Below, one piece after another: positions 2-11,926 of a stretch of DNA of 38,554 nucleotides; position 1 is the first letter of the stretch; each line of letters starts with the position of its first letter. The notes below the pieces were generated by a model. That model did no database searches, had not been told where the DNA came from, and saw only the letters and a program-made list of their open reading frames with translations. Source of the DNA: Chitinophaga pinensis (GTDB lineage Bacteria > Bacteroidota > Bacteroidia > 2-12-FULL-35-15); NCBI GenBank assembly GCA_945885475.1, contig CAMCYR010000029.1:1-38554 (forward strand), written 5' to 3'. The position numbers and the translations under genes are program-made.

Positions 2-2020
2 TTTTTTCCAACAGGCGGTGCGGCATATGATGCAGGTGGTTTGTGTGGAATTTTATTTTGTCCAGAGACCAATAGAAGGTCAGAATCTCCAACAATTAAT
101 TGCACAGGGAAAACAACCATCACTGTTAATTTTAATTATATAGAAGGTGGTCAAACTACTTTTGATGATGCAACTTTTTATTATTTTGATGGTGCTGTAT
201 GGGCAATGTTAGATAATATGCCTAAGACGTTAACTGGTTGTGGTCCACAAGGTTTATGGGCTTCAAGGACAATTGCTCTTCCGGTTTCTGCTGATAATAA
301 TCCACTCGTAAAAATAGCTTTCAGTTGGCTGAACAATGATGATGGTGTAGGAAGTGATCCATCATTCGCCGTTGACGATATTACCTTATCAACCGTTTCT
401 TCATTAAATACAATTACTACCGGAACAATTACCGGAAGCCCGTTTTGTGCCTGCAGTATTGTAAATGTTCCTTTTACAAGTACAGGAACGTTTACTGCAG
501 GAAATACATATACAGCTCAATTATCTGATGCTCTTGGAAGTTTTGCAGCAGCCACAACTATTGGAACACTAGTGAGCATAGCGAATACGGGAATAATCGC
601 CTGCACTATTCCTTGTGAGACTCCATCTGGAGCGGCCTATAGGATTAGAATAATAAGTTCAACTCCTGCAGTTATTGGAACTGATAATGGTGTAGACCTA
701 ATAATAAATGCTGTGACAGTTCCATCCGTTTCTATTACTGCTCTTCCTTCCGGACCAATTTGCGCAGGCGATGCTGTTAATTTTACTGCTACCCCGACTA
801 ACGGTGGAACAAGTCCAACTTACCAATGGCAGGTCAACGGAGTGAATGTTGGTGGTGCTACTTCATCAACTTTTACTTCATCCTCATTTGTAAATGGTGA
901 TTTGGTAACAGTTATTATGACTTCAAATGCATTGTGCGCATCACCTATAACTGACACTTCAAATACAATTACAATAATTGTTTCTGCTTCTGTTCCTGCT
1001 TCAGTAAATATTACATCAACAAGTTCGACAATTTGCGCAGGTGATGCTGTTACGTTTACCGCTGCACCAACCAATGGTGGAGCTGCTCCATCGTATCAAT
1101 GGCAAGTGAATGGAGTAAATGCTGGAACAAATTCGCCTTCTTTTACTTCAACTGCATTGTCAAATGGTGATTTAGTTTCAGTCAGTATGACTTCAACTGA
1201 ACCTTGCGTAACAGGTTCTCCGGCGCCCTCAAACAGTATTTTAATAACGGTCACTACTTGCTCGCCTCCGGTAGCAAATTTTTCAGCTAATGAAACAATC
1301 TTCTGTACAACTCCCGCTTGCGTTAATTTTACTGATCTAAGCACGAATTCACCAACCTCATGGTCATGGTCCTTCCCGGGTGCAAGTCCTGCAACATCCA
1401 CCTCGCAGAATCCAACCAACATTTGTTATGCTGCTGATGGTTTTTATAATGTTACTTTAATTGCAACAAATGCCGATGGTTCGGATACATTAACCCAAGT
1501 AGCATACATCACGGTAGGTGATCCAATTCCTGTGACTATCATTGGTAATTTACTAATCAATGCCTGCGAAGAAACAACATTATATGCAAGTCCATCCGAT
1601 GGTACATATGTTTGGGGACCTGCTGGAAGTTCTTCCGGAGCTCAAATCACTGTTTCTCCATCAGCTACAACTGATTATTTTGTGACTTATACAAGTCCGG
1701 GTGGTTGTACCGATTCGGATACGGTAACGGTAGTGGTACAAAATATTTTTTCATACTATATGCCGACGGGTTTTTCTCCGAACGGAGATGGTATCAATGA
1801 TGTGATTCAGGTTCATGGCCGCGGTATCGATTATATCAATCTTCGGATTTTTGATAGAATAGGTGAGAAAGTTTTTGAAACATCCGATCCTGAAACGGCT
1901 TGGGATGGGAAATTAATCGGACTAAGGATGAATGATAATGTTTTTGTATATACGCTTGAAGTTACATTCTGTAATGGTGATACCGCCAAAGAAAACGGTA
2001 GTATCATGCTTGCCAGATAA
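2..2020 (+). CDS. Secreted multidomain protein with T9SS type B (CHU_C) sorting domain, 5'-truncated
   Basis: The frame is open from the first bases of the window, so the gene starts upstream and about 672 residues are visible; a TTG at 41 is not a convincing start. In order I see a beta-sandwich region resembling a MAM/laminin-type domain (to about nt 400), two consecutive Ig-like repeats of about 91 residues (each with ICAGDAV and YQWQVNGVN), a PKD-like domain (nt about 1260-1530, with WSWSFPG), one more Ig-like segment, and a C-terminal CHU_C domain from about nt 1750 (PTGFSPNGDGIND, then IFDRIGEKVFET and WDGK). The last domain is the known signal for type IX secretion and, in type B cargo, for surface attachment. 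Many Cys and Thr/Ser residues fit an extracellular adhesin-like protein. The gene for a PorP/SprF-family protein follows 50 bases later, the usual partner of such cargo. The true length and ligand are unknown. Confidence 0.9.
   Translation, partial: FFPTGGAAYDAGGLCGILFCPETNRRSESPTINCTGKTTITVNFNYIEGGQTTFDDATFYYFDGAVWAMLDNMPKTLTGCGPQGLWASRTIALPVSADNNPLVKIAFSWLNNDDGVGSDPSFAVDDITLSTVSSLNTITTGTITGSPFCACSIVNVPFTSTGTFTAGNTYTAQLSDALGSFAAATTIGTLVSIANTGIIACTIPCETPSGAAYRIRIISSTPAVIGTDNGVDLIINAVTVPSVSITALPSGPICAGDAVNFTATPTNGGTSPTYQWQVNGVNVGGATSSTFTSSSFVNGDLVTVIMTSNALCASPITDTSNTITIIVSASVPASVNITSTSSTICAGDAVTFTAAPTNGGAAPSYQWQVNGVNAGTNSPSFTSTALSNGDLVSVSMTSTEPCVTGSPAPSNSILITVTTCSPPVANFSANETIFCTTPACVNFTDLSTNSPTSWSWSFPGASPATSTSQNPTNICYAADGFYNVTLIATNADGSDTLTQVAYITVGDPIPVTIIGNLLINACEETTLYASPSDGTYVWGPAGSSSGAQITVSPSATTDYFVTYTSPGGCTDSDTVTVVVQNIFSYYMPTGFSPNGDGINDVIQVHGRGIDYINLRIFDRIGEKVFETSDPETAWDGKLIGLRMNDNVFVYTLEVTFCNGDTAKENGSIMLAR
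722..1257 (+). repeat. Two tandem Ig-like coding repeats (about 91 residues each)
   Basis: The segments at about 722-994 and 995-1257 encode closely similar modules. ICAGDAV starts at nt 758 in the first and nt 1031 in the second, an offset of 273 bases or 91 codons. YQWQVNGVN and NGDLV also recur at matching positions. This is a coding duplication within the surface protein and not a mobile repeat. Confidence 0.75.
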
Positions 2021-2070: not shown

Positions 2071-3105
2071 ATGAAAAAAATAACTCTTTTAACAGCAGCC
2101 GTTCTCTCCCTTTGTGTTTTCGGATTCGCACAGGATCTGCACTTTTCACAATTTTATGCTGCTCCCTTAAACGCGAATCCGGGCAATACCGGAGCGATCA
2201 ATGCGGATATACGGGTGTATTCACTTTATCGCATGCAATGGTTTACTGTTACCAATCCTTACAAAACATTTAACATTGCAGCAGACGGTCCGATCTTCAA
2301 AAAAAGAATGTTGAGTGACGATTTTTTCGCAGCGGGTATTAATATTACAAACGATAATGATGGCCCTGTTCGCTTGAAAACACAATCATACAATGCGCTT
2401 GTGTCGTATACTAAATTTATTGGTGGACGTCAGAAACACAACATTACACTTGGGTATACCATTGGTTATAATATAAAATCTGTTGCATTAGGCGGAGTGA
2501 TGTGGGATAGCCAGTATGATCCGAACGCGGGAACATATAATCCTGCTTATGGAACAGCTGAAGGCGGCGGAGGAATTGCCTACCTTGATATGTCAACAGG
2601 TCTTGTCTGGAATTTCAGAACAAATCATTTATTCCGAAGTGCCTTGGGTTTTTCTTTTCATCATTTTACTGCACCCCGAGTGAGTATTATCGGTGGATCA
2701 GAACGATTGATTCCGAAGTTAGGTGTACAATGGAATTTCGCATACAAATTAAGTGAGACCAGCAACACAACATTATTACCTAGTTTTATTGCATATCAGC
2801 AGGGAACATCTTTATTATTGAATGGCGGATTAAATGTGAAGTATGTTTTGGAAGAAGCATCCCGTTATACGGATAATCAAACTGATAAAGCATTTTATAT
2901 AGGGGTGTTTTATCGCTTCAGAGATGCTGTATATGTTACTTTTCGTTACGATTACAAAGAATTTTCTTTCGGTGCTGCATACGATATCAATGCATCGAAA
3001 CTAATTGAGGCAACGAAAACTGTTGGTGGGTTTGAGATTTTTCTTCAGTATAAAGGAATCTTTAAAAATAAATTATCGAAAACAACGAATGTCAGATTTC
3101 TATAA
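2071..3105 (+). CDS. PorP/SprF family type IX secretion system membrane protein
   Basis: A 344-residue protein with a clear signal peptide ending near residue 20 (VFGFA-QDL), followed by the family's N-terminal signature HFSQFYAAPLNANPGNTG. The rest is an alternating aromatic and glycine-rich pattern typical of an outer-membrane beta-barrel. PorP/SprF proteins are outer-membrane components that serve T9SS. Many Bacteroidota carry several paralogues, each next to a type B cargo gene, as here. The family fit is strong. Whether this is the core PorP or a cargo-specific SprF paralogue cannot be decided, though the position behind a CHU_C protein favours the latter. The gene is probably co-transcribed with the cargo gene, and a strong terminator follows at 3127. 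Confidence 0.9.
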   Translation: MKKITLLTAAVLSLCVFGFAQDLHFSQFYAAPLNANPGNTGAINADIRVYSLYRMQWFTVTNPYKTFNIAADGPIFKKRMLSDDFFAAGINITNDNDGPVRLKTQSYNALVSYTKFIGGRQKHNITLGYTIGYNIKSVALGGVMWDSQYDPNAGTYNPAYGTAEGGGGIAYLDMSTGLVWNFRTNHLFRSALGFSFHHFTAPRVSIIGGSERLIPKLGVQWNFAYKLSETSNTTLLPSFIAYQQGTSLLLNGGLNVKYVLEEASRYTDNQTDKAFYIGVFYRFRDAVYVTFRYDYKEFSFGAAYDINASKLIEATKTVGGFEIFLQYKGIFKNKLSKTTNVRFL

Positions 3106-3182: not shown

Positions 3183-4622
3183 TCAATAGAATTCATATGC
3201 ACCTAGATCGGGAAGTGATGTACTTGGATTTGGCCGTGCTGCATTGTTGAGGTCAAACGGAATAAAAATTCCCGTATCACCTTTGTCAACGGCAAATGAA
3301 GTGGCATTTAAACGATAATCATTAATGCTTATATCTCTGTATCCGGGATTGTTTGTATAAACAGTATTGTAATGCACATTTGCAGTATTTCTCTGTGTTT
3401 TTAATATGCAATGATCAAACTTGTAAGAGAAATATCCCGGTCCGGCAAGGCTTAACGAATCGATTCCAATTTCTTCATCAATATCTCCGTAGATGATACA
3501 ATTTCCAAAATAGGCGCTGTCTAATGGTCTAACAATGTATGCGCTACCAGAAACATAATAATTACTCAACGCAATGATCGGAGTATTTCTTTCATCTCGG
3601 TCCCAGAAATTTGCAAACGTACAATGTTCAAAACGGTATTTTCCGCCAATGGTAAGTGCTGCAACATATTGTCCGCAATTGGCAAAAACACAATTCACCG
3701 CTCTGATGTGAGCGCCTTGTCCGTATAAAGCCGCAGCCGACATGTTTTTTACAATCGTATTTGAAAGTCGAAGCGTAGGATTTGTAAGAGATGCAACCGT
3801 ATCGACTTGTATTCCAATTTGTCCGTTTTTAATGATTGCCCAATCGATGATATTATTTTTACTCAATTGGGAAAGCCATATTTTACCCCATTGTCCGGGA
3901 ATATCTTTGTATTCGGGCTCTAGACGGTCGCCTTGAAAACGGACTTCATTGCCATGAGTTCCTAAGATCTCAAGCGTACCTTCTTTATACACCCAAAGAA
4001 CAGCACTGTTGTGCATGTATATTTTTGTTCCTGCCTGAATGGTTACTTTGCAAGCAGAATCTACTACCACATAGCCAAACATTAAATGTGGTTTATCATT
4101 AGGAAGTATTGTATCGAATCCAGAACGCCCAATAATTGAATAAAATTTTCCTGGTAAAGGTTTATGTAAATATACATCTTGTCCGATCGCAAGAAGCTTC
4201 ACATCCTGAATATTTCCATTCGTTTCAAAGATGATGGAATCTTTTACAATAAGGGGAAGGCTTCCCGTAGGATTTACAAATACCTGAACAAAAACATATA
4301 AGCTATCACCGCCTAAAATTTCAATATCCGTTAAAACAGGTGCACTTGCCGTGGTAGAAACACCATCAATATTTAGCTTAAATGCTGAGCCTGTTCCGCC
4401 AGCCAGATATGCTTTTGAAATGTTTATTGGTTGATCGTAGGTATTATAAATGCGGAAAACTTTTGTAGTGGAGCCTGCAAAATGAAAAACAGTATCAAAT
4501 AACACCGAATCTGTTGAAAATTGAAGCTTTGCGCTGGAGTCTGTGATTAGTTCATCCTTTTTACAAGAAGACAAAATCGTTATGATTAAGACGCAAAAAG
4601 GAATGATTCGGGAAATTTTCAT
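3183..4622 (-). CDS. Right-handed parallel beta-helix lipoprotein
   Basis: The protein is 479 residues from the ATG at 4622. A reading from 4649 adds 9 residues ahead of a perfect lipoprotein signal and would include a promoter box, so I chose the inner start. Residues 1-20 form a signal peptide with lipobox ILSSC (Cys20), followed by KKDE. The N-terminal part (about 35-150) looks like an Ig-like domain often seen in cell-surface Bacteroidota proteins (FDTVF, TTKVFRIYN). The remainder has short repeats with I/V-x-N turns, such as LRLSNTIVKNMSAAALYGQGAHIRAVNCVFANC, typical of a pectate-lyase-like beta-helix, and ends with PDLGAYEFY, a common ending in such proteins. It is probably exported and lipid-anchored. 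No catalytic residues can be assigned; a polysaccharide-binding or structural role is inference. Confidence 0.8.
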   Translation of the reverse strand: MKISRIIPFCVLIITILSSCKKDELITDSSAKLQFSTDSVLFDTVFHFAGSTTKVFRIYNTYDQPINISKAYLAGGTGSAFKLNIDGVSTTASAPVLTDIEILGGDSLYVFVQVFVNPTGSLPLIVKDSIIFETNGNIQDVKLLAIGQDVYLHKPLPGKFYSIIGRSGFDTILPNDKPHLMFGYVVVDSACKVTIQAGTKIYMHNSAVLWVYKEGTLEILGTHGNEVRFQGDRLEPEYKDIPGQWGKIWLSQLSKNNIIDWAIIKNGQIGIQVDTVASLTNPTLRLSNTIVKNMSAAALYGQGAHIRAVNCVFANCGQYVAALTIGGKYRFEHCTFANFWDRDERNTPIIALSNYYVSGSAYIVRPLDSAYFGNCIIYGDIDEEIGIDSLSLAGPGYFSYKFDHCILKTQRNTANVHYNTVYTNNPGYRDISINDYRLNATSFAVDKGDTGIFIPFDLNNAARPNPSTSLPDLGAYEFY

Positions 4623-4626
4623 GATA

Positions 4627-4634
4627 CAAATATA
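4627..4634 (-). promoter_or_regulatory. Candidate -7 box (TATATTTG) of the beta-helix lipoprotein gene
   Basis: An exact match to the Bacteroidota -7 consensus TAnnTTTG on the minus strand, only 4 bases before the ATG at 4622. No -33 TTG is present at the usual spacing; one lies 12 bases away. If it is used, the transcript would be leaderless or nearly so. Confidence 0.5.
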
Positions 4635-4743
4635 AAGTATGCGACACAAGAAACGGAATTTGCCCTGAAATATTTTAAAACTATTGAAAAATCGATAATT
4701 CTATGGAATTTAGTAAAGTATAGCATCAATCAATAAAAAAACT

Positions 4744-4863: not shown

Positions 4864-7800
4864 ATGAACAAGCAGGTAAGGTTAATTTACTTATTGCTAA
4901 TATCGTTTGCACTCAGCACGCGCTTTGCTTCTGCTCAAACTACTTTTGGTTCAGAAGAAGAGTTGAAAACACAGGCAGACAAATTATTTGATGAAGACGA
5001 GTTTGAAGAAGCCTATCCATTATATTCCCAACTCACCAGTATTTATCCAAAAGACCCTACTTACAATTACCGCTTGGGAGTTTGTATGCTTTACGCTAGC
5101 GATGATAAGGAAAAACCTGTTGCCTTTTTAGAGTTTGCTTCCAATAAACCGGATGTTGAAAAAGAAGTGTTTTTCTATCTGGCTCGTGCGTATCATTTGA
5201 ACTATCGTTTCGATGATGCCATAAAACAATACTTACTTTATAAAAATGTTGCATCCGCTGCAAAAGCAGAAAAGTTGATGGTGAATCGGCAGATCGAGAT
5301 GTGTAAAAGTGGTAAAAAACTACTCCGGAACTTAACTGATCTGGTAGTAATTGAAAAGAAAGAAATGAGCAAAACCGATTTTTTTCGTTCCTACGATATT
5401 TCAGATATTGGTGGAAAGCTTTTGGTAAAGCCTGATGAAAATGTTTTTAAATCAGCTTTGGACAAAAAGAAAAAAGAGAAATCGATCATTTACCTCGCAA
5501 CAAATAATAATCAGGTATTTTTTTCCAGCTATGGTGATGATCCTGAAAGAGGAAAAGATATTTATATTATTCGTAAACTTCCGACAGGGGAATGGAGTAA
5601 GCCGCAGACGCTGGGGTATCCTGTAAATTCTGAATACGATGAAGATTTTCCTTTCCTTCACCCGAATGGAAAGGTTATTTATTTTTGTTCGAAAGGACAT
5701 AATTCAATGGGTGGTTATGATATTTATAAAGCAACATTGAATGAAGAAACGAATACCTGGAACAAACCTGTAAACCTTGATTTTCCTATCAATACTCCGG
5801 ATGATGATATCTTATATATTACTAATGAATCAGAAACTGAAGCTTACTTTTCGTCCGCTAGAGCAAGTAAAAGTGGAAAGACCGCCGTTTATCATATCAA
5901 TGTTGAACGCAAACCAATTGACATTTCTATCATTAAAGGAGCAGTAGTAAAGAACCGCGACAACCAACCCTTAGATGTTAGGATCACTGTGAAGGATCTG
6001 AAAGAAAATGTGATTCTCGGCATGTTTAATTCTAAAGCCGCGAATGGTGTTTATCTAATCAATATTCCGAATGGAGGAAAGTTTTTGTTTACAGTGGAAG
6101 CAACAGGATTTGCTACACAATCAGATGTGGTGGAAGTGCCCGTTCAATATGTTTTTCGTCCGATGAAGCAAGAGATCAGTTATGAATTGGGAACGGATAA
6201 GCTTATTATTAAAAATCTATTTGATGAAGTATTAGACGATGCGAGTTATTTACTCGCTCTTAATTTTATTAAGGAAAAATCAAAAATGGAAGTTAGTGAT
6301 GTAAATGCATCCTTAAATTCTTCGGCTGCCACAGTAAAAGATGTAGCATCTGAAACGGCTGTTGCTGCAACAACCAATAAAGATAAAACGACTCCTACCA
6401 GCACAAAGTTAAGCAACAATGATATAGTTAAGATTGGATACGCTGACGCTGAATATGTAGCCAAGGAAGCGAAAGATCTTCATGAGCAAGCGGATGTGGC
6501 ATTGGTGCTTGCAAATCAGAAGAATGAATTATCTCTTAATAAATCAAAAGAAGCTGCTCAGCTACTTGATGATGCTTCTAAGATGGATGATTATTTGAAG
6601 AAACAGGCAACTATTGAGGAAGCAAATGCTGCAACAAAAGAGGCGGAAGAATTAAGTCAGGAAACAGTTGCAGCTTTTAATCTTGCAAAAAAAATTGAAT
6701 TCAGGGCGGAGGCGAAAGAACAAGAAGCAGATTTATCTTTGCAATATGCAAAAGATTTGGAAGCGGCTGTAAAATCAAAAAATTCTGATCCAGCATTGTT
6801 CGCTAAGTTGGAAGAACAACAAAAGAAGTTAGATGCGCTGTCTGAACAAAATAACAATCCAACATTGGTGAACAGCCTGAAAATGGATGTGGATAACAAA
6901 AAACGTGAATTGGATAAAGCGCTGCAGACTTCTGCAGATATCAAACAAGAAATTACTGATAACGAAGCATTAATTATTACTACCCAGGTTGATGCGGATA
7001 AAGAGAGGAATGAAAAGGTAAAGCAAGGATTGATTGATCAGTTGACAGGGCTGAAAATGGATACGGAAGAGAGTAAAAAAGATCTTGTATTGAACGAACA
7101 AAAAGTTGTTAAATTACAAAAAGAATACAACGGTGTGGTTAATGAAAAGGCATTGGTGAGCAATGTATACGACAATGCGAAAACCGTTACAAGTGAAAAA
7201 GCTACTGCTGATCTAGCGATGATTGATAAGGTAAAATTAGAGGCACAGGTAAATGCAATTAAAAATTCTACAACTGTAAATACTTTTGCAACTAAAACGT
7301 CAGAAATCGCTTCAAATACAACTTCTAATTCAACCGATAGTAATAAAAAAACAAATGATATTGCTCTTAGTAATTCAAAAAAAGTAGATAATACAGATAG
7401 TAATTCTTCTGAAAATAATTCAGATAAAGCAACAGCTGTTGGCGTAACAAATTCGAAAACAACAGATAATGCTTCTGATAATGCTACTCAGATAAAAATT
7501 GATTATGCAAAAAAATACGCTGATGATATCGCTGCTGCTGAGAATCTGGTGAATGAAGTAGAGCGTGAGAACACAAAAGCAGCGTTGTATAAAGATTGGT
7601 CAATATCCATTTCAGAAGACATCGTGGCTAAAAAAGCAGAGGTAAAAACGGAAAAAGACAAGACAAAGAAAAAAGAGTTGACAACTGAAATTTCTTCTTT
7701 GGAGAAAGAGTTGAAAGAGAAACAAAAAACAACTGCAACAATTCTAGTTGCGATTGAGAAACTAAAGAAAGAGGAAGCCCTTGCTGTTGCTAATAAAACA

Positions 7801-10773
7801 AAAATAGATAATAGTAGTGCAGAGAATGCTCTAACCGAAAATACTTCCCTTAAGATTTCTAATCTAGCTGAAATCAATAAAAAATATTCAGATGAAATTG
7901 AAGCAACAAAAAGTATTGCCAATGCAAATGATCGTGAAAAGGCAAAAGCGGCTGTATTAACAAGTTGGAGCAAAGCCCTCGATGCAGATGTTGTAGAGAA
8001 AAAACAAGAAATGGATGCAAGTTCTGATCCTGAAATAAAAGCGTTGCTGGCCATTAAGATCAAACAATCTGAATCATTATCAATAGAAAAACAGAAAGAA
8101 GCGGAGCAGTGTTTGGCGAAGGCAGTGGTAGATCCGGCTATAGCAGTAAACGAAAGTGCTTCGGAGAATACTTTAAAAGTCGGAACAAATACCTTGGCTG
8201 ACAAAACAACAAAAGCAACGGAAACAGAAGTAGTGAAGAATGTAGATAATTCGATTGCCGGCAATGCTTCAAAAACAAAAGACAACAATGATGTTAATGT
8301 AACAGATGAAAAAAAGGATGTAGCGATTGCTAAAACCAAAAATACAAATCCAACAGACAATGCAATCAATTCAAGTTCAGAAAAAATAAAAGATGTTGGT
8401 TCAATAAAAACGGCTGACAATTCGAATAATACCTCTCAAACAAGTGATAACTCGACTTCAAAAACACAAGAAAATTCAACTACTTTAGCAAGCAAAACTT
8501 CGGATATAGAAAGTAATTCGGCTGAAAACGGATTTACTTATACTTCCCCCTTTGCCGTTCAACAAGCAACAAAAGCAGGCGAATTATCGAAAGAGGCGGA
8601 AGAGTTAACTTCTCAGTCGAATGATTTGAAAACCAAAGCAGCAGCAGAAAATAATACTACTACAAAAAATGCAATATATGCTGAAGCAGCTGAATTTGCA
8701 AAACAAGCTGAACGCAAAGAATTAGAGTCGGCCCAACTTTTTGCTGAAGCAAATAAAACGGAATATGCTACCAATCAGTATAAGGTAGACCAATTTGTAA
8801 AATCAACCCAAGGAAATACCTCAGATGATATTTCAATTGCTGAAATGATGAAAGACGAAGCGGATAGCTATTTTAACCTCGCAGCCAAATCCAGAGTAAT
8901 AGCAGCAAACGCAACCTCTTTCTACGAAAAAGAATCTGCTTTGCGCGATGCCTATAAAAATGAATTGATCGCATTAGAAAAGCAAAAGAATGCAAAAGCT
9001 ATTTATTTAAAATATACTCCTGATGTTGCCTCTCAACCAATAGCCTTGGCTGATATAAAAAATACGGAAAATACCTCTTCAAAATCAACAGATTCAGCTA
9101 GTACAAAATCGGAAAACACATCAACTTCCGGAAATGCTCCGAAAAATGCCGGAAATGCAAATGTTGGAAATGCAACAAACTCGAGCGATGTTGTTGCAAA
9201 GTCATTTAATGAAACTTCTGGTAATAATAAGTCGAAAACGACTGACAACTTAGAAACAGATACTACTTTAAAAACGAACAATACAACTGAAACACAGATA
9301 TTAGCAAATACAGCAAAAATAAATACGAATAATGTTGCAGGCAACAATTCAACATCGGATAATAGGGCATCAAACACAACAACAGGTTCTTTTGTGAATG
9401 ACGTTTTTGTTGCAAAATCGACAGCCGCATACTCATCAGCTAAACCAATTCCTGTAAATGAAAAATTGCCGGAGGGATTGATTTTTAAAGTTCAGATAGG
9501 AGCATTCAGAAATCCTATTCCTCAGGATCTTTTTAAGGGAATGTCTCCAATAACAGGAGAAACCACCCCGCAAGGTTTTATCCGTTATACAGCCGGACTC
9601 TTTACAACGTTTGCAACAGCTGATAAAGTAAAAGAGGAAATTCAGGCAATGGGCTATAAAGACGCTTTTGTTGTCGGATTTTACAATGGAAAACGACTTG
9701 CAATGACGGAGGCAATTGCTATGGTCGCTGGAGCTGTTACATCTTTAAACAAAACAACTTCTACTCCAGATAATACAACCGAAGCATCAATATCAGATGG
9801 AGTGACTTCAGCCAATACTAGCGAAAATATTATTTCAATACCTGCAATTACAGAACCTAGCCTTTCTGTAAAAGTACAGTCTAGCATACCGGCCACTGCG
9901 GAGAGTGTTGCCAATGTAGCTGGCTTGTTTTACACGGTTCAGGTCGGTGTATATTCTCAACCTGTTTCTTCTGCAAAATTATATAATGTTCAACCATTAT
10001 ATACCGAAGTAGCACCGAATGGTAATCTAAGGTATAATACAGGGATCTATAACACTATCGGAAGAGCATCTGAGGCAAAGAACATGATTATCGATGCGGG
10101 CATTAAAGATGCGTTTATTGTTGCCTACATCAATGGAAAGCGTATTCCTATGACAGATGCTGCTCAGTTGATTTCCCAAGGCAGCGCTGTTTTCTCAACA
10201 GCACCTAATATGAATGCATTGCCGACTTTTTCGGCTACTGTTTCTGCTACTGTTCAAAATAATGGAACAACTTCAGCTACTGCCTTAAATTCAGTAATTG
10301 TAAAAACGAATGCTGATAAAACGAATAGTAGTGTTGAATCTAATCCGGAAATAACAACTCCGACTGTTGCAGTTACATCTACTCCAGAAAAAACGATTCA
10401 GCCCCTGTTAAATGAAATCAAAACGACAACACCGGTTGTAAGTGAGCAATTAAAGGCTGAAGCCCAAGCAAGTAATGTTTTTCAAATTGATTCAGGTGTT
10501 ATTTTTAAGGTTCAGATAGGAGCTTTTAAAGATGAAGTGCCGCTGGTGATTGCTAATGAATTCCTGAAATTAGCAAACCGTGGTGTTAAGAATTATAAAG
10601 ATGCGAATGGTTTAACCATATACACTGTTGGCAATTTCCGTTCATACGAAGAAGCAGGTACAGCAAAAGTAGAAATTTCGGCTGTCGCGAATATTACTGA
10701 CGCATTTATTGTAGCCTATAAAGATGGATTAAAAATATCTGTGGATGAAGCAAAGACATTGTTTGGTAAGTAA
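4864..10773 (+). CDS. Giant exported protein: TPR, PD40 propeller, CRD, coiled coil, three SPOR-like domains
   Basis: A 1969-residue protein with a signal peptide (cleavage near FASA-QTT, residue 25; no lipobox). Residues about 30-155 look like TPRs (ADKLFDEDEFEEAYPLYSQL). Residues about 195-355 are a WD40-like PD40 propeller (GDDPERGKDIYII, DEDFPFLHPNGKVIYFCS, GGYDIYKA). Residues about 360-435 are a carboxypeptidase-regulatory-like domain. This order matches the T9SS protein PorE, which ends in an OmpA-type peptidoglycan-binding domain. Here, after residue 455, the protein continues as about 1000 residues of Lys/Glu/Ala-rich coiled coil broken by Asn/Ser/Thr/Lys-rich linkers. It ends in three SPOR-like modules at about 1537-1622 (FKVQIGAF), 1687-1775 (YTVQVGVY) and 1878-1969 (FKVQIGAF). 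SPOR domains bind peptidoglycan, so an envelope-spanning or peptidoglycan-tethered role is inferred. clpS starts 22 bases downstream. Confidence 0.85.
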   Translation: MNKQVRLIYLLLISFALSTRFASAQTTFGSEEELKTQADKLFDEDEFEEAYPLYSQLTSIYPKDPTYNYRLGVCMLYASDDKEKPVAFLEFASNKPDVEKEVFFYLARAYHLNYRFDDAIKQYLLYKNVASAAKAEKLMVNRQIEMCKSGKKLLRNLTDLVVIEKKEMSKTDFFRSYDISDIGGKLLVKPDENVFKSALDKKKKEKSIIYLATNNNQVFFSSYGDDPERGKDIYIIRKLPTGEWSKPQTLGYPVNSEYDEDFPFLHPNGKVIYFCSKGHNSMGGYDIYKATLNEETNTWNKPVNLDFPINTPDDDILYITNESETEAYFSSARASKSGKTAVYHINVERKPIDISIIKGAVVKNRDNQPLDVRITVKDLKENVILGMFNSKAANGVYLINIPNGGKFLFTVEATGFATQSDVVEVPVQYVFRPMKQEISYELGTDKLIIKNLFDEVLDDASYLLALNFIKEKSKMEVSDVNASLNSSAATVKDVASETAVAATTNKDKTTPTSTKLSNNDIVKIGYADAEYVAKEAKDLHEQADVALVLANQKNELSLNKSKEAAQLLDDASKMDDYLKKQATIEEANAATKEAEELSQETVAAFNLAKKIEFRAEAKEQEADLSLQYAKDLEAAVKSKNSDPALFAKLEEQQKKLDALSEQNNNPTLVNSLKMDVDNKKRELDKALQTSADIKQEITDNEALIITTQVDADKERNEKVKQGLIDQLTGLKMDTEESKKDLVLNEQKVVKLQKEYNGVVNEKALVSNVYDNAKTVTSEKATADLAMIDKVKLEAQVNAIKNSTTVNTFATKTSEIASNTTSNSTDSNKKTNDIALSNSKKVDNTDSNSSENNSDKATAVGVTNSKTTDNASDNATQIKIDYAKKYADDIAAAENLVNEVERENTKAALYKDWSISISEDIVAKKAEVKTEKDKTKKKELTTEISSLEKELKEKQKTTATILVAIEKLKKEEALAVANKTKIDNSSAENALTENTSLKISNLAEINKKYSDEIEATKSIANANDREKAKAAVLTSWSKALDADVVEKKQEMDASSDPEIKALLAIKIKQSESLSIEKQKEAEQCLAKAVVDPAIAVNESASENTLKVGTNTLADKTTKATETEVVKNVDNSIAGNASKTKDNNDVNVTDEKKDVAIAKTKNTNPTDNAINSSSEKIKDVGSIKTADNSNNTSQTSDNSTSKTQENSTTLASKTSDIESNSAENGFTYTSPFAVQQATKAGELSKEAEELTSQSNDLKTKAAAENNTTTKNAIYAEAAEFAKQAERKELESAQLFAEANKTEYATNQYKVDQFVKSTQGNTSDDISIAEMMKDEADSYFNLAAKSRVIAANATSFYEKESALRDAYKNELIALEKQKNAKAIYLKYTPDVASQPIALADIKNTENTSSKSTDSASTKSENTSTSGNAPKNAGNANVGNATNSSDVVAKSFNETSGNNKSKTTDNLETDTTLKTNNTTETQILANTAKINTNNVAGNNSTSDNRASNTTTGSFVNDVFVAKSTAAYSSAKPIPVNEKLPEGLIFKVQIGAFRNPIPQDLFKGMSPITGETTPQGFIRYTAGLFTTFATADKVKEEIQAMGYKDAFVVGFYNGKRLAMTEAIAMVAGAVTSLNKTTSTPDNTTEASISDGVTSANTSENIISIPAITEPSLSVKVQSSIPATAESVANVAGLFYTVQVGVYSQPVSSAKLYNVQPLYTEVAPNGNLRYNTGIYNTIGRASEAKNMIIDAGIKDAFIVAYINGKRIPMTDAAQLISQGSAVFSTAPNMNALPTFSATVSATVQNNGTTSATALNSVIVKTNADKTNSSVESNPEITTPTVAVTSTPEKTIQPLLNEIKTTTPVVSEQLKAEAQASNVFQIDSGVIFKVQIGAFKDEVPLVIANEFLKLANRGVKNYKDANGLTIYTVGNFRSYEEAGTAKVEISAVANITDAFIVAYKDGLKISVDEAKTLFGK
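7501..8140 (+). repeat. Coding duplication of a coiled-coil unit with about 122-residue period
   Basis: Within the giant SPOR protein, the stretch beginning near residue 881 (YAKKYADDIAAAENLVNEVE) recurs, diverged, near residue 1003 (EINKKYSDEIEATKSIANAN). Both continue with RE(N/K)xKAA, a Trp-Ser pair (DWSIS / SWSKA) and VxxKKxE. The offset between the matching Tyr residues (886 and 1008) is 122. This suggests growth of the coiled-coil region by internal duplication followed by divergence. Confidence 0.6.
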
Positions 10774-10795: not shown

Positions 10796-11101
10796 ATGAA
10801 GATTAACGATTTCGATAAACAGCAACACGAATTGGATACGGATTCCGATGTACTTACAGCTCCTGAAGAGGTTGCAGTTGAAGATAAGCAGATTGTAGTG
10901 TACAACGATGATTTCAATACATTCGATCATGTAATCAATTCATTGATCAAAGTATGTAAACATGATCCGATACAAGCAGAGCAGTGTACCTTCTTAATTC
11001 ATCATAAAGGAAAATGCTCTGTTAAAAAAGGTTCGTATGAAAAACTTGAGCCCATGTGCACCGCTTTGTTAGAAAGAGGAATTACTGCAGAAATAGAATA
11101 A
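10796..11101 (+). CDS. clpS: ATP-dependent Clp protease adaptor ClpS
   Basis: A 101-residue protein from the ATG at 10796, with an AAGGAA-like ribosome-binding sequence about 8 bases upstream. An ATG at 10745 would overlap the preceding gene and add a non-conserved extension. The core has the ClpS pattern: QIVVYNDDFNTFDHVINSL (binding loop for N-degrons and the ClpA-type chaperone), then AEQCTFLIHHKGKCSVKKGSYEKLEPMCTALLERGITAEIE. The N-terminal 30 residues are acidic and variable, as is usual. ClpS delivers N-degron substrates to the Clp chaperone-protease in the cytoplasm. It sits 22 bases after the giant protein gene and 21 bases before the M48 protease gene, so the three may share a transcript. 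Confidence 0.92.
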   Translation: MKINDFDKQQHELDTDSDVLTAPEEVAVEDKQIVVYNDDFNTFDHVINSLIKVCKHDPIQAEQCTFLIHHKGKCSVKKGSYEKLEPMCTALLERGITAEIE

Positions 11102-11122: not shown

Positions 11123-11926
11123 ATGAAGAAGGTTTTATTGTTTTCAGTTTTAGGATTTAGTATTCTTTTAACTGCTTGTCAGAAAGTGCCGATAACGAAC
11201 CGAAAACAAGTTAGTTTAATTCCTGAATCCGAAATGATTGGTCTGAGTTTAACGAGCTACTCTGATTTTCTTTCTAAAAATCCTGCCGTAGCAGAGTCTG
11301 ATGCCAATGCGAAGATGGTTTCCAGAATTGGAAAAGAGATGCAAAAGGCAGTTGAAGTTTTTATGAATGAAAGAGGATTATCCAGTAGATTAGATGGTTA
11401 TCAATGGGAATTTCACATGGTAAATGAGAAGACAGTAAACGCCTGGTGTATGCCCGGAGGAAAGGTGGTTGTTTATTCGGGATTGCTTCCTGTAACTCAA
11501 ACTGAAGGTGCTTTGGCTTGTGTTATGGGACACGAGATTGCACACGCAGTTGCACGTCATGGAAACGAACGGATGAGTCAGGGGCTTTTAGTTCAAGTTG
11601 GGGGCATTGCTCTTTCTGTTGCTCTTTCTCAAAAAACGCAGATGACCCAGGATATTTTTTTACAATCATACGGTATTACCTCTCAACTGGGAATGCTAAA
11701 ATATTCTCGTACGCACGAAAGTGAAGCAGATAAAATGGGATTGGTATTTATGGCAATCGCAGGATATGACCCTTCCGAAGCAGTTTCTTTTTGGGAGCGA
11801 ATGGAAAAAGCTAGTGCAGGAAACAAACCTCCGGAAATTTTAAGTAGCCACCCAAGTGATGCTAATCGTATCGCAGATATTAAAGCTTTTTTGCCTGAGG
11901 CAATGACGTATTATAAAAAGAAGTAA
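11123..11926 (+). CDS. M48 family zinc metalloprotease lipoprotein (BepA/LoiP-like)
   Basis: A 267-residue protein with a lipoprotein signal peptide (lipobox LLTAC, Cys19), followed by the ITNRKQ motif common in secreted M48 proteases. The zinc site HEIAH lies at residues 137-141, and HESEAD at 198-203 supplies the third ligand. The segment AWCMPGGKVVVYSGLL (about 107-122) is also typical. Length and layout fit single-domain periplasmic or outer-membrane-associated M48 peptidases, which act in envelope protein quality control; substrates are unknown. It follows clpS by 21 bases. No TPR domain is present, unlike E. coli BepA. Confidence 0.9.
   Translation: MKKVLLFSVLGFSILLTACQKVPITNRKQVSLIPESEMIGLSLTSYSDFLSKNPAVAESDANAKMVSRIGKEMQKAVEVFMNERGLSSRLDGYQWEFHMVNEKTVNAWCMPGGKVVVYSGLLPVTQTEGALACVMGHEIAHAVARHGNERMSQGLLVQVGGIALSVALSQKTQMTQDIFLQSYGITSQLGMLKYSRTHESEADKMGLVFMAIAGYDPSEAVSFWERMEKASAGNKPPEILSSHPSDANRIADIKAFLPEAMTYYKKK

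Follow-up and report, generated by a model that had tools for sequence, protein, structure and literature searches.

A family of giant periplasmic proteins of Bacteroidia with a PorE-type head and SPOR-like modules

The gene at positions 4864-10773 on the forward strand of the window, i.e. the whole 38,554-nucleotide stretch of Chitinophaga pinensis DNA that was analysed, encodes a giant periplasmic protein; its family, as yet unnamed, is kept in single copy by many Bacteroidia. Judged from its sequence, the giant protein is related to PorE but appears not to be a PorE with a swapped anchor. The open reading frame begins with ATG, runs without an internal stop and yields a product of 1969 aa, in which a TPR domain, a shortened PD40 propeller and a carboxypeptidase-regulatory domain (CRD) are followed by a helix-rich middle and three SPOR-like modules (M1, M2 and M3; Table 1). 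The parts of the protein are known, and the whole architecture is named as a family by no model or paper found; no description of the TPR-PD40-CRD-SPOR family was found in the literature outside subscription papers.

Table 1 Predicted features of the giant protein and genes around it (positions in the window)
Feature	Residues	Position	Strand	Basis or remark
Signal peptide, Sec-type, ending ...STRFASA before Q, without lipobox	1-24	4864..4935	+	read from sequence
TPR-type helical domain	31-154	4954..5325	+	AF2 helices; sub-threshold Pfam TPR; invariant columns
Partial TolB-like/PD40 beta-propeller	185-349	5416..5910	+	Pfam PD40; VIA-align; TPR-to-CRD interval
Carboxypeptidase-regulatory/CnaB-like beta-sandwich (CRD)	about 352-453	5917..6222	+	VIA-align; sub-threshold Pfam in ortholog
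Helical segment A, long helices	517-800	6412..7263	+	AF2 helices; heptad-like period in MSA
Helical segment B	890-1092	7531..8139	+	internal duplication by self-comparison
Helical segment C	1215-1405	8506..9078	+	composition and conservation
SPOR module M1	1523-1621	9430..9726	+	Pfam SPOR; AF2; Gln and basic site invariant
SPOR-like module M2	1674-1772	9883..10179	+	homology to M1; AF2; Gln and Arg invariant
SPOR module M3	1865-1967	10456..10764	+	Pfam SPOR in orthologs; VIA-align; alignment
clpS		10796..11101	+	Pfam ClpS 64 bits; start most likely 22 bp beyond the stop codon of the giant gene
M48 metallopeptidase lipoprotein (BepA/LoiP-like)		11123..11926	+	Pfam Peptidase_M48 123 bits
Type B CTD protein		41-2020		upstream of the giant gene
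PorP/SprF protein		2071-3105		upstream of the giant gene

The order signal peptide, TPR, PD40 and CRD had been proposed in an earlier note on this DNA, and it was borne out by Pfam, AF2 and fold comparison. When the whole protein was searched against Pfam, PD40 (28.1 bits, cut-off 20.9) and SPOR (PF05036; 26 bits, cut-off 21) each exceeded the cut-off, and a TPR match was obtained below threshold. Pfam and NCBIfam gave no OmpA match on the giant protein, SPOR being found there instead, and searches of the whole protein with both collections detected no T9SS sorting domain. No lipobox was recognised by motif scan, the signal peptide ending in ASA before Q. A survey of 72 complete family members, performed as a motif scan and not with a signal-peptide predictor, found no lipobox-like motif in 68 and a lipobox-like string in four, none of them convincing. 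The giant protein is most simply regarded as soluble, periplasmic and wall-held; the periplasm-spanning role suggested in the earlier note would call for a membrane partner.

The head matched the NCBIfam model of PorE (NF052230) with 82.3 bits (E 2.4e-23; curated cut-off of 600 not reached) and that of CHU_0125 (NF053607) with 76.3 bits (cut-off of 620 not reached), both matches being confined to residues about 211-425 (213-425 for PorE). The PD40 part was aligned to the TolB propeller by VIA-align with Z 9.1 and 3.3 Å over 136 residues (~160 residues matched). The CRD resembled transthyretin/CnaB-like folds at Z about 8-10 (VIA-align), and Pfam CarbopepD_reg_2 was detected below threshold in the CRD of one ortholog. 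Foldseek of the N-terminal model listed chiefly long helices, with TM-scores near 0.1, and these rows were treated as meaningless. The head of the giant family is homologous to PorE-type heads. The interval from TPR to CRD measured 207-211 aa in each of 15 sampled family members (210 aa in the giant protein) and 291-324 aa in 14 paralogs. By alignment, the propeller was short by about 90 residues, roughly two PD40 repeats or blades, in every member sampled, and the giant family thus appears to have lost about two blades throughout; the partial propeller might possibly be completed by dimerisation. In the TPR domain, C74 and C147 (5083-5085 and 5302-5304) were invariant across 26 family members, possibly as a structural disulfide.

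The earlier note had interpreted the protein as a PorE that had exchanged its OmpA anchor for SPOR modules, and the N-terminal domain order is indeed identical to that of PorE. The PorE of P. gingivalis (PG1058; NF052230) is a ~670-aa T9SS-associated periplasmic lipoprotein with a five-bladed propeller of about 270 residues and an OmpA_C domain (PMC7192894). The giant protein shares with it the order of TPR, propeller and CRD and a peptidoglycan-binding end (binding predicted), but it is ~2000 aa long and unlipidated, its propeller is shortened, and a long helical stretch leads to three SPOR modules. The same genome encodes many further PD40 proteins, including a separate PorE-like protein (L076:4399-6504) with an end-to-end match to the PorE model, much better at 526 bits, and an intact OmpA domain. 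In the head tree, the giant family formed one group (100/100) with short non-OmpA paralogs and two PD40-SPOR paralogs as its neighbours, and a 98/98 branch divided it from the PorE-like protein of the genome and the CHU_0125-like proteins; this tree was unrooted, its paralogs came from one genome, and the order of its nearer branches was weakly supported (85-93). The exchange of anchors was rejected on the basis of the head tree and the co-resident PorE-like protein, and the lack of a lipobox and the shortened propeller also speak against it; we regard it as highly improbable. What survives of the earlier interpretation is a PorE-type head joined to another, predicted, peptidoglycan-binding end. 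The grouping of the N-terminal part with PorE-like proteins likewise holds as homology of the head, but not as a place on the side of PorE itself in the tree.

The two PD40-SPOR paralogs are adjoining proteins on contig C9 (L074:5565-8378, 937 aa; L074:8957-11071, 704 aa), which carry TPR, PD40 and CRD, lack OmpA, end in SPOR-like modules and form their own clade in the head tree. SPOR in place of OmpA is therefore not unique to the giant protein. Their head and modules are alike in order to those of the giant protein, but their propeller interval is of full length (298-300 aa) and they are short, without the long helical middle. The CHU_0125 family protein has a similar head (76 bits), but its end is OmpA-type and that of the giant protein is not. 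In F. johnsoniae, more than twenty PorE-like proteins are present (PMC7192894).

The middle of the giant protein consists of three helix-rich segments, joined by N/S/T-rich (up to 60%) linkers with little conservation. Coiled coil over about 1000 residues, as described in the earlier note, was rejected, and the description was retained for segment A only (about 280 residues). In AF2, segment A was composed mostly of long helices of 46-61 residues each, and its alignment-averaged profile had a heptad-like 103-degree period that was reached by 1 of 500 shuffles. The same alignment-averaged test placed segments B and C not above shuffles (217/500 and 223/500), and none of the three segments exceeded shuffles in the single-sequence test. 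Segment B contained an internal duplication of ~65 residues (self-comparison, E 2e-6).

The three modules were compared with each other, and similarity was detected between M1 and M2 (36%, E 1e-21), M1 and M3 (32%, E 4e-13) and M2 and M3 (E 7e-7), where the E-values were computed for a three-sequence database; the modules appear to be homologous to each other. M1 matched Pfam SPOR at 23.4 bits, above the gathering cut-off of 21, and did so in 23 of 23 orthologs. M3 scored 20.8 bits in the window (cut-off 21) and matched in all 23, and M2 was matched in 11 of the 23 at E up to 1, the window copy not being among them. AF2, run with 24 sequences, predicted three confident module domains (pLDDT mostly 80-96) separated by disordered linkers. 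Each followed the SPOR-like order strand-helix-strand-strand-helix-strand, with the first helix short in M1 and absent in M2, and ended in a short extra strand and helix that correspond to the NGKR tail. The top PDB match in Foldseek of the C-terminal model was the SPOR domain of CwlC (prob 1.00, E 0.016, whole model), and DamX, DedD, FtsN and RlpA were also listed. VIA-align of M3 gave CwlC (Z 7.0), RlpA (Z 6.8) and DamX (Z 6.1), scores that are not decisive alone but agree with Pfam; M1 gave PII-like ferredoxin folds only (Z 4-4.5), in a run on the C-terminal model that probed mainly M3 and scarcely M1 and M2. The claim of three SPOR-like modules is supported by Pfam (for M2 in about half of the orthologs), the beta/alpha pattern predicted by AF2, Foldseek and, mainly for M3, VIA-align. 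In the module tree, the copies of M1, M2 and M3 from distant orthologs each formed one group (88/96, 99/98 and 81/86), indicating that the three had separated by the time the sampled families split.

Denuded glycan is contacted in RlpA by Q270 together with an arginine patch, which in CwlC is formed by K42/K47 (PMC6895207). All 23 orthologs had the Gln aligned with RlpA Q270 in each of the three modules; at the position of RlpA R309/CwlC K47, M1 and M2 carried an Arg without exception, but M3 had I/V/L. The alignment predicts that denuded glycan is bound by M1 and M2 and perhaps not by M3. The RNP-like SPOR fold and the conserved Gln are shared with CwlC, RlpA, DamX and FtsN, as is the basic site in M1 and M2; in these, SPOR forms part of an enzyme or of a membrane-anchored protein, whereas the giant protein carries three modules behind a PorE-type head, each with a strand-helix tail. 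The NGKR tail had been read in the earlier note as the mark of a single duplicated unit. Homology of the modules stands, but this use of the tail was rejected, since tails of the NGKR form also follow SPOR in other proteins of the same genome, namely a PorG-like one of 769 aa, another of 463 aa and the PD40-SPOR paralogs; the tail seems to be a general trait of SPOR modules in this genome. The 769-aa protein (L069:4784-7093, contig C12) has weak N-terminal PorG similarity (65 bits, cut-off 130) and two to three C-terminal SPOR modules, and it adjoins the 463-aa SPOR protein.

Among 40 relatives searched, orthologs turned up across the genus and also in further families. Of the 26 ortholog loci examined, most contained ORFs of 1800-2300 aa, and a profile of the C-terminal modules matched strongly three times in almost all full-length orthologs. 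A contig scan with module 1 confirmed at least 477 relatives, of which the best 80 were kept. M1 was carried by all of these 80, which include records named Vicingus serpentipes, Crocinitomicaceae and Flavobacteriales; among the complete ORFs (median length 2092 aa), nearly all had TPR, PD40 and CRD together with SPOR modules, usually three but ranging from two to four. At a threshold of E up to 1e-28, a strong module-1 match was obtained in 153 of 395 evenly drawn genomes of the class, nearly always one per genome, and the matches spanned about 28 of the 77 sampled families (counted from the rows listed). A phylum-wide draw gave a match in 2 of 395 genomes, and the rows shown were all of the same class, so absence elsewhere is not implied. 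Five genomes of one family (G194, G274, G297, G379 and G397) had a second strong match; where listed, these fell in short reading frames (about 370-410 aa), part of them interrupted by a stop codon, and they are possibly a separate short SPOR protein. Two shorter members, L065:6472-10023 (1183 aa) and L067:6381-11120 (1579 aa), kept the head with a weak or undetectable SPOR match; both lie upstream of clpS, and in the tree they fall together at the margin of the family.

Directly downstream of the giant gene and on the same strand, clpS was found in 60 of 77 loci, other families included. ClpS is cytosolic, so this linkage may be only regulatory or historical. Of 74 loci, 42 had an M48 metallopeptidase gene no more than 1.5 kb away; the copy in the window matched BepA (111 bits) and LoiP (71 bits), both below their cut-offs. 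Upstream, a divergent beta-helix/choice-of-anchor Q protein (3183-4649, reverse strand) occurs across much of the genus. In the PorP/SprF protein of the window, no twin-cysteine motif resembling that of the track-linked SprF of F. johnsoniae (PMC12635249) is present at the C-terminus.

We consider the chances about even that the giant protein serves as a wall-bound scaffold, in which the SPOR modules would grip amidase-processed glycan and the head would dock an envelope partner. The observations behind this reading are the family, its domain order, the homology of the modules, the truncated propeller, the conserved neighbourhood and the site residues, and from them we infer binding, location, partner and function. 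The protein would be exported by Sec without lipidation, and its three C-terminal modules would hold it on peptidoglycan. The predicted target is probably amidase-processed, stem-peptide-free glycan, with M1 and M2 keeping the glycan-binding residues and M3 divergent. The long middle of helices and linkers would act as a flexible spacer, the head of TPR, half-propeller and CRD would dock an envelope partner as PorE docks PorP, and the scaffold would gather at places of wall remodelling, for example at the division site. This proposal is favoured by an architecture conserved across families, by the strong single match in 153 of 395 genomes of the class, by the SPOR assignment and the site residues described above, by the homology of the head to PorE-type heads and by the signal peptide without lipobox, and it agrees with the reported binding of PorE to PorP and peptidoglycan (PMC9143113, PMC7192894) and with the recognition of denuded glycan by SPOR domains (PMC6895207). 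Against it, M2 falls below Pfam detection in half of the orthologs and M3 lacks the basic residue, some SPOR domains may serve protein contacts, and the clade of L065 and L067 keeps the head with a weak or undetectable SPOR end.

The head could instead bind a PorP/SprF-type barrel together with a type B CTD adhesin, the SPOR modules fixing this complex on the wall. Genes of both kinds lie just upstream in the window, complexes of PorE, PorP and type B CTD are known (PMC9143113), and the head is homologous to PorE. However, PorP was present within 5 kb in just 6 of 27 loci, all from close relatives, and the conserved neighbour is clpS, not porP. A PorP partnership argued from synteny was therefore rejected, and PorP as the partner is doubtful. 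The head is also truncated relative to PorE, and the genome has its separate PorE-like protein; on balance, anchoring of a T9SS adhesin is unlikely. Coupling of outer-membrane constriction to the splitting of the septal wall, by analogy with Tol-Pal, CpoB and DamX and with TPR, TolB-like half-propeller, long spacer and SPOR modules combined in a single chain, is another function that we judge unlikely. The fold neighbour of the PD40 part is TolB, a gene for an M48/BepA-like lipoprotein is often next in line, a housekeeping role would suit a widely conserved single-copy gene, and septal denuded glycan is the target of SPOR (PMC6895207). TolB, however, is a generic fold neighbour of PD40, so that the match shows no function, and division genes are absent next door. 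A bolder form, in which a widespread single-copy wall scaffold of Bacteroidia, built of TPR, a TolB-like half-propeller and three SPOR modules on a ~1000-residue spacer, replaces coupling of the Tol-Pal/CpoB/DamX type, is quite doubtful.

The PorE-like proteins of Bacteroidota have mostly been seen as OmpA-anchored parts of the T9SS. In the giant family, the PorE-type head is also joined to predicted binders of wall-remodelling sites, and the gene, conserved, usually single-copy and linked to clpS, looks more as one would expect of a housekeeping function in the envelope than of an accessory anchor for adhesins. The family thereby offers a defined target for studying how these bacteria tie their outer-membrane machinery to the wall.
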